DNA of 51,568 bases from an uncultured Acidobacteriia bacterium (GTDB taxonomy: Bacteria; Acidobacteriota; Terriglobia; Bryobacterales; Bryobacteraceae), in assembly GCA_903900705.1 (NCBI GenBank), contig CAIUOG010000051.1, forward strand, positions 1 through 51,568, given 5' to 3'. The notes beneath the pieces are model-generated. The model ran no database searches. It saw nothing but the letters and a program-made list of their open reading frames with translations, and was not told the origin of the DNA. Below are positions 45,315 to 50,425 of the stretch, piece after piece. Position 1 is the stretch's first letter. Each line of letters begins with the position of its first letter. Made by a program: the position numbers and the translations under genes.

Positions 45315-46634
45315 ATGAATCGACGTACCTTTCTTTCGCTTGCGCCCGCGATCATTCCGGGGTCGGCACTGGGTTTGAATGGCGCGGTTGCGCCGAGTAA
45401 CCGGATTGCGCTGGCGGTGATCGGAGCGGGCAATCAGGGCAGTAACGATTTCAAGGCGTTTCTTCGGGATGAGCGCGTGCAGATTACGGCGGTGGCGGAC
45501 CTGAATCGCCAATCGCCCGGCTACTGGGATGGCGGGATTGCGGGCCGCGAGCCGGCGCGTTCGTGGATCGAATGGCATTATGCGCGGCAGAAGCGTTCGG
45601 GCACGTATAAGGGCTGCGACGTCTATGAGGATTTCCGCGAGGTTCTGAATCGCAAAGACATTGACGCGGTGACGATCGCCGTGCCCGACCACTGGCACGC
45701 GCTGGCCGCCACTGCCGCCGCGCGCGCCGGTAAGGACATCTACGGCCAGAAGCCACTCGCGCTCACTATCGCGGAAGGCCGCGCCATCAGCGATGCCGTG
45801 AAGAAGTACAACCGCGTCTTCCAGTGCGGCAGCCAGCAGCGGTCTGACGTACGCTTTCGCAAGGCCTGTGAAATTGTGCGCAATGGCCGCATCGGCAAGC
45901 TGCAGAAGGTGCTGTGCGGGCTGCCGGGAGGCACGCCGGATTTCGGGAGGACGGGGGATCGTCAGGAGCCCGAACCGGTGCCGGAGGGCTTTAACTACGA
46001 GATGTGGCTCGGGCCCACGCCGGAGGCTCCATATGCGCCGGGGCGCTGCCATGTGAATTTCCGGTGGATTCTGGATTATTCGGGCGGGCAGATTACGGAC
46101 TGGGGCGGGCATCATCCGGACATCGCGCAGTGGGGCATGGGGACGGAAAAGACCGGGCCGGTGGCGATCCGCAACGGCCAGGCGCAGTGGGCGCGGGAGA
46201 AGCTCTGGAATACCGCGACGGACTTCACGTTTGACGCGGTTTATGAGAGCGGCGTGACGCTGACGGTTTCGAGCCGCCTGCGCAGCGGCGTGACGTTCAT
46301 CGGCAGCGAGGGCTCCGTGTGGGTGACGCGCGGGGCCATGGAAGCCACGCCGCAGGCGCTGCTCGATTACACGCCCGGGCCGGGCGAGATCAGCCTGTAT
46401 AAAAGCGAAGACCACTACCGCAATTTCATCGATTGCGTGCAGAGCCGGAAGGAGCCGATTGCGCCGGCCGAGCAGGCGCATCGCTCGATTACGATCGGGC
46501 ACCTGGGGAATATCAGTCTGCGCGTGGGGCGCGATCTGCGTTGGGATCCGAAGACGGAGCAGATCCTCGGCGACGAGGTGGCGAACCGCATGCTTTCGCG
46601 CCCGATGCGGAAGCCCTGGAAACTGGAAGTCTAA
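45315..46634 (+). CDS. Tat-exported Gfo/Idh/MocA-family NAD(P)-dependent oxidoreductase
   Basis: A 439-residue oxidoreductase. Tat signal (NRRTFLSLAPAIIPGSALG); Rossmann domain with GxGxxG (VIGAGNQGS, about 36-44); VPDHWHA; the active-site loop IYGQKPLAL containing the catalytic Lys; and the substrate domain with DWGGHHPDIAQWG. Exported members of this family are common in acidobacteria and planctomycetes; related enzymes carry tightly bound NAD(H) and interconvert sugar hydroxyl and keto groups, often at C3. Start: ATG at 45315 with CGGAG 10 bases upstream. It is divergent from the fucosidase gene, so the two may jointly process fucosylated sugars. Confidence 0.92.
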   Translation: MNRRTFLSLAPAIIPGSALGLNGAVAPSNRIALAVIGAGNQGSNDFKAFLRDERVQITAVADLNRQSPGYWDGGIAGREPARSWIEWHYARQKRSGTYKGCDVYEDFREVLNRKDIDAVTIAVPDHWHALAATAAARAGKDIYGQKPLALTIAEGRAISDAVKKYNRVFQCGSQQRSDVRFRKACEIVRNGRIGKLQKVLCGLPGGTPDFGRTGDRQEPEPVPEGFNYEMWLGPTPEAPYAPGRCHVNFRWILDYSGGQITDWGGHHPDIAQWGMGTEKTGPVAIRNGQAQWAREKLWNTATDFTFDAVYESGVTLTVSSRLRSGVTFIGSEGSVWVTRGAMEATPQALLDYTPGPGEISLYKSEDHYRNFIDCVQSRKEPIAPAEQAHRSITIGHLGNISLRVGRDLRWDPKTEQILGDEVANRMLSRPMRKPWKLEV

Positions 46635-46650
46635 GCGAAGCCTTTGGAAT

Positions 46651-47268
46651 TTAGGCCAGTTCGCCGTTCCGCCAGGCCGCGAGCAGCGCTTCCTGCGCGG
46701 CCACGGCGGCATCTTTCACACGCCAGGCGGCGCGGTCGCGGTTGCCCACGGGGTTGCTGATGCCGCGCACTTCCCCGGCGCGAAGGCCAAACAGCCGCGC
46801 CACGTGCGCAATGGCCGCGCCCTCCATGTTCTCCACGCCGCCGCCGGTGCGCGCGGCGAGCGCGAGAGCACTGGCATTGTCGCCGGTGCAGGTGTTGACG
46901 GTAACGAAAGGAACAAGGCGGCGTTCAGGCACAATTTGCAGCGGCAGCACGTTGTAGACGGGTTCCGGGCCGGCGATGACCGGGAAGCCCAGCGCCCGCA
47001 TATCGAGGAAGCCGCCAGCCGAGTTCGCGCCGAGATCGCCGTAGCATTCGGTCTCCGCCCAGGCGACGCTGCCCACCGGCAAATCCGCGCCCGGATAGCC
47101 GCCGCCGATGCCGCAGACCACGACGGCCTTCGCCTGTTGCGCGGCGAGAAAACGCGTGAGCGCGATGGCGGCATTCACGGCGCCTACGCCGGTAATGATG
47201 ACAGGCAGGTGTGGCCGCAGCAGAGCGCCTTCCATTTCGGTGGCAACGCAGATGATGAGGTCGGTCAT
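46651..47268 (-). CDS. mqnB: futalosine hydrolase (menaquinone biosynthesis, MqnB)
   Basis: Cleaves futalosine to dehypoxanthine futalosine plus hypoxanthine in the futalosine route to menaquinone. The 205-residue protein has the nucleoside-phosphorylase/MTAN fold: VATEMEG near the start (catalytic Glu), VVVCGIGGGYPG, VENMEGAAIAHVARLFG (substrate ribose-binding Met-Glu) and VRGISNPVGNRDRAAW, where the Asp acts as general acid. The 'RGISNPVGNRDR' form is distinctive of MqnB. Its ATG follows the upstream stop directly (TAAATG), so it is the last gene of a four-gene operon. No other mqn gene is in the window. Confidence 0.9.
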   Translation of the reverse strand: MTDLIICVATEMEGALLRPHLPVIITGVGAVNAAIALTRFLAAQQAKAVVVCGIGGGYPGADLPVGSVAWAETECYGDLGANSAGGFLDMRALGFPVIAGPEPVYNVLPLQIVPERRLVPFVTVNTCTGDNASALALAARTGGGVENMEGAAIAHVARLFGLRAGEVRGISNPVGNRDRAAWRVKDAAVAAQEALLAAWRNGELA

Positions 47269-47877
47269 TTATTTGGGCGCATAGCCGCCGCGCGCGCTGA
47301 TTTTGCCGCGCTTCCGGTGCCCTTCGTCAGACATGGGATGCACGCCGGTGGCATCAATCCAGCGGTTGTAAAAATTGAACAGCGCGCAGACCGTGATGGC
47401 GTAGTAGATCGCTTCATCGCTCCAGCCGGCGGCGCGCAGGGGTTCCATATCGGCAGCCGTGATGGCGGGCGAATGGCTGTTCACCTTGCGCACGAAGCGC
47501 AGCAGCGCCTTCTCGTTTTCGGGAAGCGCCGAGGCTTCCAGGTCTTCAATCACGCTCCACACCAGAGCCTCATCTCCCATTCCTTCACCCCCCAGCAGTT
47601 CCGCCGCGACCGCGGCGTGTGACTTCAGTCAGAACGGGCACTGATTTTCAGCCGAGGTGAAGGCCGCGATCAACTCCCGCAGGCCGGGCGTGAGCGGCGA
47701 AGGTTCGCGCAGAATCTCCTGCGTGAAGCGGGCCAGGTGTTCGGTGGCTTTCGGCCTGAAGGCGAACAGGTGCCAGATCTGCGAATACTCGCCGCCGGCC
47801 TGCATCTGCCGCAACAGGTCGGCGTACGGCCCGGGTTCCGGATTGTTTTCGACATCGGGCAGAAACAGCGGTTCCAT
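47269..47877 (-). CDS. AhpD-like (carboxymuconolactone decarboxylase family) peroxidase, probable selenoprotein with in-frame TGA
   Basis: A 202-residue AhpD-like protein read as one gene across an in-frame TGA at codon 83 (47629-47631). The first 82 residues (ending ENQCPF) and the following 119 residues (LKSHAAVAAELLGG onward) are both typical of the family and in the same frame. The TGA replaces the second cysteine of the CxxC-xxx-H redox motif: C80-P-F-[TGA83]-L-K-S-H87. A GC hairpin with GGUC loop follows at the distance expected of a bacterial SECIS. Both halves would otherwise be truncated genes, and the second has no good start before 47580. The family reduces peroxides through its thiol or selenol pair. 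It sits between the M20 gene (2-bp gap) and mqnB (0-bp gap). Confidence 0.85.
47602..47617 (-). promoter_or_regulatory. candidate bacterial SECIS hairpin downstream of the TGA
   Basis: In the mRNA: CGCCGC, loop GGUC, GCGGCG; six perfect pairs with an optional seventh G-C that leaves a GU apex. The loop begins 17 bases after the UGA. In E. coli fdhF the GGUCU loop begins about 18 bases after its UGA, so position, loop sequence and stem match the SelB-binding element. Confidence 0.75.
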
Positions 47878-47879
47878 AC

Positions 47880-49121
47880 TTAGGATTCTGACAGCCTGGC
47901 AAGGGTCTGCGCCAGGACCAGCGTGCCCTGCGCGATGGCCTCCGGCGAGGCGTATTCATCGGGCCGGTGGCTCACGCCATTGCGGCAGGGGATGAACAGC
48001 ATGGCGGTGGGGCAGATGCGCGCCATGAAGAGCGAATCGTGATAGGCGCGGCTCACCATGCGGTCGAACGGGAGATTGCTTTCTGTGCAGACGGCGCTGA
48101 TGGCATCGACAATCTTCGGCGCGCAGGCGCAGGGCGCGTCGCGGTTGATGATCTCGATGCTGATGCTCACGCCCCGGCGCGTGGCGACGTCTTCGCAGGT
48201 CCGTTCCAGATGTTCGATCATGCCGTCGCGGCGGACGCCGTCGATATCGCGGATATCGGCCTCCAGATGCACGCGGCTGGCGATGCCGTTGCTGACGCGC
48301 GGAAACAGGTCGCAGACGCCGGTGGTGGCGACGCTGTCGATGGAGCCTGTGGCGAGCGCGGCCTTTTCGAGTGCGAGGGCGATCTCCGCAGCGGCCAGGA
48401 AAGCATCGTGGCGGTCCCGCATGAGCACCGCGCCAGCGTGGCCGCCCTGACCGTAGATTTCGAGGCGCAGACTGGCCGGCGCGGCGATGGCGGTGACCAC
48501 GCCGACAGGCACGCCGCGGCGCTCCAGCAGCGGGCCCTGTTCGATGTGCAGTTCCACAAAGGAATCGTAGTAGTTGTCGGGCAGGCGCACCGAAGCCAGA
48601 TCGCCGGTGAAGCCCGCCGCCGTGCGGATCTCGCGCAGCGTGCGGCCCGCGGCGTCTTTCATGGTGGTGTCCACGGAGACTTCCAGGCTCCCGGTCAGCA
48701 GCCGGGAGCCCAGGCAGCCGAGGCCGAAGAGCGTGGGTTCTTCGGAGGTAAACAGGAGCAGTTCCAGTGACCGGCGCGGCACGAAGCTGGCGGCCTGGAG
48801 CGCGCGGATGGCTTCGAGTCCGGCGAGCACGCCCACCGTGCCGTCATAGCGGCCGGAGTGCGGAATGGCGTCGATGTGGGAGCCGGTGCCCACGGCGGGG
48901 GCTTCGCGGTCCGAACCGTGCCAGCGCGCGAAAGTATTGCCGACCGCGTCTTCCCGAACGTCAAGACCCGCCTGCGCGCAGAGGTCTTTGAGCCAGGCGC
49001 GGGCGCGCAGATCGTGCTCGGAGAAGACGATGCGGCTCACCTCCGGTGCTTCCAGAGCGGAGAACGCGGCGAGTTCGTCGAGTTCGCTTGTGAGGCGGTC
49101 CGGATTAATAGAGATCTGCAT
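47880..49121 (-). CDS. M20-family amidohydrolase (allantoate/ureidoglycolate/N-carbamoyl amino acid hydrolase type)
   Basis: A 413-residue binuclear zinc enzyme of the M20C (AllC/hydantoinase-carbamoylase) subfamily. Zinc ligands are in GTGSHIDAIPHSGRYDG (His and Asp), FTSEEPTLFG (tandem Glu, general base), ELHIEQGP (His) and the C-terminal GVSHRPDEY (His). The substrate could be allantoate, ureidoglycolate, ureidoglycine or an N-carbamoyl amino acid. Its place directly after a guanine deaminase gene (5-bp gap) favours purine-ring breakdown, but uricase, allantoinase and the other steps are not in the window. The substrate assignment is therefore open. Confidence 0.9.
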   Translation of the reverse strand: MQISINPDRLTSELDELAAFSALEAPEVSRIVFSEHDLRARAWLKDLCAQAGLDVREDAVGNTFARWHGSDREAPAVGTGSHIDAIPHSGRYDGTVGVLAGLEAIRALQAASFVPRRSLELLLFTSEEPTLFGLGCLGSRLLTGSLEVSVDTTMKDAAGRTLREIRTAAGFTGDLASVRLPDNYYDSFVELHIEQGPLLERRGVPVGVVTAIAAPASLRLEIYGQGGHAGAVLMRDRHDAFLAAAEIALALEKAALATGSIDSVATTGVCDLFPRVSNGIASRVHLEADIRDIDGVRRDGMIEHLERTCEDVATRRGVSISIEIINRDAPCACAPKIVDAISAVCTESNLPFDRMVSRAYHDSLFMARICPTAMLFIPCRNGVSHRPDEYASPEAIAQGTLVLAQTLARLSES

Positions 49122-49126
49122 AGTTT

Positions 49127-50425
49127 TCAGCCTGCGGGCGCTTCAAAGACGACGCTTCCTTCCACGCGGACCTCGCGGATACTCTCCGGACCGGCCATTG
49201 TGATGATGGCCGCGAGTTGCCTGTCAGGATCGTCGCTGTTTTTCAGGCTACCAGCAAGCACGCTCCCCGCGGGGGGCCGGAGGTAGACAAAGTCGGCGGC
49301 CTTGCCGGGGGAAAAGTCACCCGTGAGGCTTTCCATTCCGAGCGCCTCCGCGCCGGCCCGGGTGGCGAGATAGAGCAGTTGCGCTGCCCGCAGCGTCACG
49401 GGTTTCTCCGCCACCCGTTGCATCAGGCAGGCCTGCAGCGCTTCCCTGAGAAGGCCGAAGCCGGCGCCGGCGCCCACGTCTGTACCGAGCGCGAAGCGGA
49501 CGCGGGCATCCAGATGGCGGCGCAGCGGAAAGATGCCGCTGCCGAGCGCCGCGTTGCTGGAGGGGCAGTGCGCCACGGCGCAGTCCCGGGCGGCGAAGCG
49601 CCGCAGTTCGTCGTCAGTGGCCTGCACGTTGTGCGCGAAGACGGAGCGGCGGGTGGCGAGATCGAACTGTTCGTAAACGTCGAAATAATCGCGGGCGCGC
49701 GGGAAGAGCCGGGCGACATCGCTCACTTCCTGTGGATTCTCATTGATATGGGTGGTGAAGTACAGGCCGGGTTCTTCGCGGAGCAATGTGCGGCAGACGT
49801 CGAGCATCGGCTCACCGGCGGAGAGCGCGAAGCGCGGGGTGACGGCGTACCGCAGCCGCGCGTGTCCCTGTACCCGGGCGGCCAGTTGCCGGCAGGCCGC
49901 ATACGCCGCTTCCGGCGTCTGGTGCAGTTCCGGGAGCAGGAGCCGGTCTGACAGGACCAGCCCGCTGATGAGGCGCAGGCCCTTGCGGTCCGCCGCGTCA
50001 AAAAGCGCCGCGACCGCCGGGGCGAAGTGCGCGCCAAAGACCAGAGAGGTGGTGGTTCCATGCGCGGCCAGATGATCTGCAAACTCGCTGGCAAGCGCCT
50101 GTGCGTAGGGGAGGTGGGCGAGGCGCGCTTCCTCCGGCAGTGCCACGGCCCGCAGCCAGTCCAGCAGGGAATGCCCCAGGCTCCCGGTGATGCGGGCCTG
50201 CGGGAAGTGGATGTGGGTGTCGATGAACCCGGGCAGCAGAAAGCCCCCGCGCAGATCGCGCACGGTGGCGCCGGGATACCGCGCGCGCAGGGTGGCGAAG
50301 TCATCGCAGGCGGCGATGCGGCCCGCGTGAATGGCCAGCGCGCCATCCGGCAGCGAAACCAGTGCGGAGGCCGAATCAAAAGGGTTCGCCGGGGTGTGAA
50401 AGACGGCGGCGCGCAGGATCTCCAT
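49127..50425 (-). CDS. guaD: guanine deaminase
   Basis: Hydrolyses guanine to xanthine and ammonia. The 432-residue amidohydrolase has the guanine-deaminase form of the metal motif, PGFIDTHIHFPQ (about 66-77), then YAVTPRFALS, FTTHINENPQE (His), VFAHNVQATDDE, AHCPSSNAALGSG and LGTDVGAGAGFG (metal Asp). These together match GuaD rather than cytosine or chlorohydrolase relatives. It is the first gene of a minus-strand operon continuing with an M20 hydrolase, an AhpD-like selenoprotein candidate and mqnB. Start: ATG at 50425. GATAAT on the minus strand ends 14 bases before it, giving a very short leader. Confidence 0.93.
   Translation of the reverse strand: MEILRAAVFHTPANPFDSASALVSLPDGALAIHAGRIAACDDFATLRARYPGATVRDLRGGFLLPGFIDTHIHFPQARITGSLGHSLLDWLRAVALPEEARLAHLPYAQALASEFADHLAAHGTTTSLVFGAHFAPAVAALFDAADRKGLRLISGLVLSDRLLLPELHQTPEAAYAACRQLAARVQGHARLRYAVTPRFALSAGEPMLDVCRTLLREEPGLYFTTHINENPQEVSDVARLFPRARDYFDVYEQFDLATRRSVFAHNVQATDDELRRFAARDCAVAHCPSSNAALGSGIFPLRRHLDARVRFALGTDVGAGAGFGLLREALQACLMQRVAEKPVTLRAAQLLYLATRAGAEALGMESLTGDFSPGKAADFVYLRPPAGSVLAGSLKNSDDPDRQLAAIITMAGPESIREVRVEGSVVFEAPAG

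Follow-up and report, generated by a model that had tools for sequence, protein, structure and literature searches.

The window, that is, the whole stretch of 51,568 nucleotides analysed here (contig CAIUOG010000051.1, from an uncultured Acidobacteriia bacterium), contains a run of four tightly packed genes on the minus strand, separated by gaps of 5, 2 and 0 bases (Table 1). The third gene of this run is interrupted by a TGA at 47631..47629 (tca at 47629-47631 of the plus strand), which is its sole internal stop, lies within the motif C-P-F-[TGA]-L-K-S-H, and breaks the frame into the ORFs 47877..47629 and 47580..47269 of a mechanical ORF list. When this TGA is taken as a residue, a single protein of 202 residues results, with U83 in the context N78-Q-C80-P-F-U83-L-K-S-H87. 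An earlier reading made from the sequence alone (hereafter, the sequence-only reading) had described two ORFs of the same frame parted by a single TGA, and had placed this codon at the second redox position of the motif; the joined translation confirms both descriptions, and places the gene on the minus strand, a point that reading left unstated. The tight run as a whole (46651-50425) holds an unusual mix of genes: guanine deaminase, amidase, the putative selenoprotein and futalosine hydrolase.

Table 1. Features of the putative selenoprotein locus and of the tRNA-Sec blocks in the same genome. Positions are those of the window unless a contig is given.
Feature	Position	Strand	Basis or remark
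Guanine deaminase	49127..50425	-	First gene of the apparent operon
Hydantoinase/carbamoylase-family amidase (TIGR01879; allantoate amidohydrolase-like)	47880..49121	-	Upstream, 2-base gap
Predicted AhpD-like (TIGR01926, peroxidase-related) selenoprotein gene	47269..47877	-	202 codons + TAA; joined ORFs, family model
Glu68, 12 residues before Cys80, in the place of the AhpD relay glutamate	47674..47676	-	Invariant in 23 rows
Cys80, first redox residue of CxxU	47638..47640	-	Invariant in 23 rows
UGA codon, almost certainly selenocysteine; residue 83, second position of CxxU	47629..47631	-	TGA in 77/80 relatives, TGC in 3
His87 of the CxxUxxxH signature	47617..47619	-	Invariant in 23 rows
Predicted bacterial SECIS stem-loop, CGCCGC-GGUC-GCGGCG	47602..47617	-	Columns 15-30 from the U of UGA; covariation, folding
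Apical GGUC; outer bases (columns 21, 24) covary G-C / A-U	47608..47611	-	
Futalosine hydrolase (TIGR03664)	46651..47268	-	Next gene; begins one base past the AhpD stop codon
tRNA-Gln/tRNA-Sec block copies (L135, L136, L137)	G000 contigs C100:257-347, C126:70431-70521, C59:1002-1091		

Neither half of the frame alone gave a Pfam match at E 0.001, whereas the joined protein matched CMD (PF02627) with 36.5 bits (cut-off 23) and the NCBIfam model TIGR01926, 'peroxidase-related enzyme', with 95.9 bits (cut-off 81.8), Cys being written for Sec in the scoring; the assignment of the joined halves to AhpD-like proteins in the sequence-only reading thus stands. In an alignment of 23 rows (the window's own protein with 19 TGA and three TGC relatives, Sec written as Cys), E68, C80, residue 83, H87 and C164 were invariant. 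The AlphaFold2 model derived from this alignment, with a mean pLDDT of 89, contains helices at residues 64-77 and 81-95, and C80 lies directly before the second of them. In the model, the Glu, CxxU and His residues of the active site sit in two adjacent helices, as the TIGR01926/AhpD-like assignment requires. The best fold matches in the PDB (Foldseek) were 3c1l, 2pfx, 2oyo, 6k40 and 2prr, with E values of 1.9e-8 to 3.2e-7, and these same five structures were also the closest by sequence (E 2e-17 to 2e-13).

Relatives of the gene were confirmed in genome contigs for 165 stretches, from which we kept the best 80. The sequence-only reading had left it to homologues whether Cys or TGA occupies position 83: among the best 80 of 165 relatives, codon 83 is TGA in 77 and TGC in three (L064, L086 and L104). 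According to record titles, 76 of the 80 kept relatives belong to the Acidobacteriota; the other four are titled as Proteobacteria (L039), Chthoniobacterales (L041), Cyanobacteria (L049) and Gemmatimonadetes (L083), and some of these may be mislabelled bins. A second survey covered 61 genomes, 60 from the same bacterial family plus the one that contains the window, and may share organisms with the best 80 relatives. It produced 38 matches at E <=1e-30 in 34 genomes, with identities of 48-100%; 32 of them have one internal TGA and six have no stop. At the codon position, 30 survey loci, the window's own included, carry TGA (28), TGC (1) or TGT (1). A motif scan also placed CxxC relatives of the AhpD type directly ahead of the Sec gene in three loci, with three of them in L073 (positions in this observation 3104, 3845, 4433 and 5241), two in L076 and one in L082.

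These comparisons bear on the possibility that the TGA is a nonsense mutation or a sequencing error in an ordinary Cys gene, which would leave a truncated, decaying pseudogene. TGA is one base from TGC and TGT, Cys forms do exist (3/80), and the window's gene clusters with two of them: in a quick protein tree, for which Sec and the 11 residues after it were masked and whose midpoint root does not give the direction of change, it falls into one group (support 97) with the TGC genes L064 and L086, which themselves sit on a long branch (0.61). The highest identity of the window's gene (74%) is to L026, a TGA gene, and the tree needs at least two changes between TGA and TGC. Against a pseudogene, however, stands the fact that 77 of the 80 relatives share this TGA, which also makes a read error at this point very unlikely. 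Moreover, in each of the 81 genes (the 80 relatives and the window's own), reading on from codon 83 to the next stop yields a product of 194-211 codons. Pairwise comparison of the window's gene with four hand-picked relatives (L025, L027, L031 and L046) gave dN/dS values of 0.07-0.22 for a 40-codon segment ahead of the TGA and 0.08-0.10 for a 70-codon segment close to the 3' end. These values are rough, as seven of the eight dS estimates exceed 1, and they argue for purifying selection on both sides of the UGA. Decay of the frame after the TGA, which the sequence-only reading had named as evidence that would speak against it, was thus absent in relatives, with full-length products in 81/81 and low dN/dS on both sides in the four pairs. 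Furthermore, the window's stem pairs fully, like that of 73 of the 78 TGA genes, among which the stem covaries (see below). We therefore consider a pseudogene or a read error extremely improbable.

The sequence-only reading had also noted a hairpin that begins 11 nt after the TGA, with its GGUC loop 17 nt after it, and both distances are correct. Its further argument, that a stop codon with a fitting hairpin would be unlikely by chance, is weak: in the window's sequence alone, the hairpin gave z-scores of -0.18, -0.86 and -1.82 against shuffles for three folded segments, and around 9% of the synonymous codings of H-A-A-V-A-A would pair at all seven positions. The lone hairpin is unexceptional, and the case goes beyond chance because 77 of 80 relatives keep the TGA and because the stem covaries.

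To describe this covariation, columns are numbered from the U of UGA. Columns 15-20 pair with 25-30 in the stem, columns 21 and 24 form an extra pair, and the counts refer to 78 TGA rows (77 relatives and the window's own). The innermost pair, 21/24, is G-C in 44 rows, A-U in 33 and G-U in one. Pair 18/27 is C-G in 74 rows and U-A in four, and pair 15/30 is C-G in 68, U-A in six and U-G in one, the other three rows being unpaired (two U-U, one C-C). Pairs 16/29 (75 G-C, three G-U) and 17/28 (76 C-G, two C-A) vary little, and 19/26 and 20/25 are invariant. The paired changes are mostly synonymous, because columns 15, 18, 21, 24, 27 and 30 are third codon positions. On the quick protein tree, pair 21/24 changed at least 15 times; supported independent pairs agreed in 7/7 cases in nearly all of 200 random pairings, and occasionally in 6/6, with a median p of 0.0156 in a sign test. 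Pairs 18/27 and 15/30 provided three independent pairs each, too few to reach significance.

The published bSECIS model, in the part of its source available to us (PMC13188914), has a loop of 3-9 nt with an early G, mostly with an N1/N2 pair around it, an upper stem of 4-16 bp, a spacing of 16-37 nt and an MFE <=-7.5. The element in the window agrees with this model, with a GGUC loop of 4 nt, a stem of 6-7 bp, a spacing of 17 nt and -12.4 kcal/mol. The MFE is <=-7.5 in 76 of the 78 TGA rows; L026 and L093 miss the limit. A scan of positions 46500-48600 against Rfam, with E up to 1, gave no match. The apex itself varies in four TGA relatives (L054, L056, L057 and L060), in which Gly replaces Val at codon +7, giving GG, not GU, at columns 22-23; their apical bases are AGGU in the first three and GGGU in L060, to which the single G-U at columns 21/24 belongs, against AGUU or GGUC elsewhere.

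Could the stem-loop reflect mainly the coding of an H-A-A-V-A-A helix, rather than a SECIS? These amino acids favour G/C-rich complementary codons, hence the fraction of synonymous codings that pair fully, and a fair hairpin is kept in two of the three TGC genes: the MFE is -8.4 kcal/mol in L086 and -8.0 in L104, both still below -7.5, and -4.5 in L064, versus a median of -12.4 in the TGA rows. Nevertheless, all seven pairs are standard in 73/78 TGA rows and in 0/3 TGC rows, which retain 5, 6 and 5 standard pairs of seven, and paired synonymous changes have no coding reason. In addition, residue 88 is Ala in 78/78 TGA forms and Val in 3/3 TGC forms, a split that fits a constraint of the RNA on the protein. 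A stem owed mainly to coding is therefore hardly credible, and the preferred reading is a SECIS element. The TGC genes thus have a stem that is weaker, but not in every case lost; inspection by eye of the more distant Cys versions L130 and L133 showed no such stem.

The window's genome (6.1 Mb, 99.87% complete) contains selA (487.1 bits, cut-off 268), selB (349.8 bits, cut-off 242), selD (365.8 bits, cut-off 125) and two copies of tRNA-Sec with a UCA anticodon (68.9 and 64.6 bits, cut-off 47). The absence of selA, selB, selC and selD, which the sequence-only reading had held would count against a selenoprotein, is thus contradicted, since all are present and each scores above its cut-off. The selD gene (G000:C152:8002-8910, L143) probably encodes a selenoprotein as well, and has a single in-frame TGA, in K-A-A-G-U-A-S-K. 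We also searched for SelB in 40 hand-picked genomes of the 80 relatives, where it scored above the cut-off in 37/37 TGA genomes and in 2/3 TGC genomes; the third TGC genome (L064) has a partial match of 142.9 bits. Of the 61 surveyed genomes, 51 gave a SelB match (E 1e-62) and 49 a tRNA-Sec match (E 1e-8). At least one of the two was present in 30 of the 31 genomes with a TGA gene, the exception (G046) being 80% complete, and in 25 of the remaining 30. Co-occurrence with the machinery agrees with selenocysteine, yet barely discriminates, since the machinery is widespread throughout this bacterial family. Extra matches of ca. 50 bits to the tRNA-Sec family in G081 and G042 were discarded, as they are tRNA-Ser according to ARAGORN; the 50-bit matches in G050 and G093, which are the sole basis for tRNA-Sec in these two genomes, both with SelB, may be tRNA-Ser too.

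The tRNA-Sec genes of the window's genome belong to a divergent tRNA-Gln(TTG)/tRNA-Sec(TCA) block of ca. 260 bp, present in three copies that are 83-92% alike in pairwise blastn comparisons. The copy on C100 is probably the original, because the gene that follows it begins like DnaJ, and this arrangement recurs in G081, a genome of the same genus. An additional 105-bp piece of the C100 flank is present on C126, and the tRNA-Sec on C59 was not called by ARAGORN and looks degenerate.

Such copies are relevant to a different explanation, in which the UGA would be read as another amino acid (e.g. Trp or Cys, via a suppressor tRNA) or the downstream piece would be reinitiated. tRNA-Sec-like tRNAs charged with other amino acids do exist, according to the available portion of PMC7609411, and the window's genome has extra tRNA-Sec-like copies. 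Its two strong copies, however, carry the UCA anticodon and score above the tRNA-Sec cut-off, and selA and selD are present. The alternative residue at the redox position is Cys and a SelB-type stem is conserved; furthermore, UGA regularly serves as a stop codon in this gene family, where 30 of the 81 coding sequences in the gene set end with it. The second tRNA-Sec was likewise rejected as a sign of code variation, as it has the UCA anticodon and the difference amounts to one base within the tRNA. Altogether, we regard decoding as another amino acid, or reinitiation, as highly improbable.

Sequence comparison establishes the UGA and its conservation, the covarying stem, the selenocysteine machinery, the fold match and the active-site residues; TGA conservation, stem and machinery, together with the intact downstream frame, support the claim of the sequence-only reading that this is a real selenoprotein and not a nonsense mutation. 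Judging from these comparisons, UGA 83 almost certainly codes for selenocysteine, and the gene very probably encodes an AhpD-like, peroxidase-related (TIGR01926) selenoprotein with SelB-dependent Sec at U83. In the mechanism that we propose, SelB with Sec-tRNA-Sec(UCA) would bind the stem-loop 12-27 nt past the UGA and deliver Sec at codon 83. The product would have the redox motif C80-P-F-U83, followed by H87 and preceded by E68, that is, an AhpD active site with selenium replacing the second cysteine. It would most likely be a thiol/selenol peroxidase or a disulfide-exchange enzyme, with U83 and C80 alternating between a reduced pair and a selenylsulfide; family resemblance makes this redox chemistry likely. 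Its substrates are more likely than not peroxides or small electrophiles of another kind, with a reduced thiol as the partner in the reaction.

The neighbouring genes in the window say little on function, because they were not found in the 80 relative loci (tblastn, E 1e-15; flanks of up to 5 kb, many shorter), nor around the futalosine hydrolase of G081, in whose 11 kb of surrounding sequence the other operon genes are absent. At E 1e-30, the selenoprotein had no match in this same-genus genome, which is 98% complete. A conserved operon with purine or futalosine genes was consequently rejected, the neighbours being absent from both the 80 loci and the G081 stretch. Of the 80 relatives, 37 have a same-strand MFS gene downstream, which is absent from the window's locus; in 35 of those 37 its match starts within 75 bases of the stop codon. 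If only loci with at least 1300 bases downstream are counted, the MFS gene is present in 35 of 75. This pairing is independent of Sec, because all three TGC loci are among the 37. The one example scanned (L098:5530-6792) came closest to the MFS models for lactate and for oxalate/formate, but did not reach their cut-offs.

We add a broader and tentative suggestion, which we hold to be possible rather than probable: that Sec is ancestral and normal in the Acidobacteriota AhpD-like clade and was lost to Cys more than once, and that in nearly half of the lineages the gene and one for a lactate/oxalate-type MFS transporter make up a unit of two. If true, the selenoenzyme would be linked to the uptake or efflux of one particular small molecule and would not be a general peroxidase. 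The 78 TGA and three TGC versions, with their covarying SECIS, make the exchange between Sec and Cys and the requirement for the SECIS directly testable.

The sequence-only reading had stated that Sec-containing AhpD-like members had already been reported, and this is borne out by the portions of the literature available to us, in which the CxxU form has been in print since 2005. In that year, 27 AhpD-like CxxU selenoproteins of COG2128 were reported from the Sargasso Sea (PMC1088965). As far as the accessible text goes, a 2006 survey of bacteria tabled AhpD-like selenoproteins, e.g. from Alkaliphilus, and gave four selenoproteins of three families for Acidobacteria (PMC1794560), whereas a GOS table from 2008 has the entry 'AhpD-like 1, COG2128, CxxU, 299' (PMC2398784). 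More recently, a 2026 review, in its available part, lists 'AhpD-like protein, TIGR01926, CxxU', together with the NF041238 AhpD-related and NF041047 GSU3128-family (seleno)proteins, also with CxxU (PMC13188914); the string 'acidobacteri' is absent from its main text. The window's protein shares the AhpD core with NF041238 and NF041047 and belongs to neither, since it scored 40.8 bits against a cut-off of 175 for the former and 18 against 110 for the latter. Literature on selenium in Acidobacteria, Bryobacter and Solibacter, in a search that left most subscription journals and bioRxiv uncovered, yielded no account of this clade, and in the literature searched we found nothing on its spread in Acidobacteriota or on the downstream MFS gene.

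Comparison with characterized proteins places the predicted Sec at the second redox position of the AhpD active site. In the available part of its description, the relay of Mycobacterium tuberculosis AhpD comprises Glu118, Cys130, His132, Cys133 and His137 (PMC3141380), and the spacing of Glu118-Cys130-Cys133-His137 equals that of E68-C80-U83-H87 here; the window's protein differs in having Sec for the second Cys and Phe82 where AhpD has His132, and the fold match between both proteins is weak (Foldseek E 0.09 and above). Likewise, the AhpD-like PA0269 of Pseudomonas aeruginosa shares with it the active-site order of Glu, CxxC and His, with a second Cys as opposed to the Sec here. Among the closest structures, 2oyo, 6k40 and 2prr have Cys in place of the window's Sec in the printed alignments, and none of the five (3c1l, 2pfx, 2oyo, 6k40 and 2prr) is named a selenoprotein in the structure listings. 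The closest likeness is to the AhpD-like selenoproteins of COG2128/TIGR01926, as far as these are described in the sources available: the window's gene has CxxU, scores above the TIGR01926 cut-off and carries a SECIS directly 3' of the UGA. Compared by motif and family model, the two differ in where they were found, because the available 2005 and 2008 texts place the COG2128 selenoproteins in marine metagenomes, whereas the clade described here is mostly from Acidobacteriota. The window's gene is thus a further case of an already known selenoprotein family, and the advance is one of breadth, not of kind.
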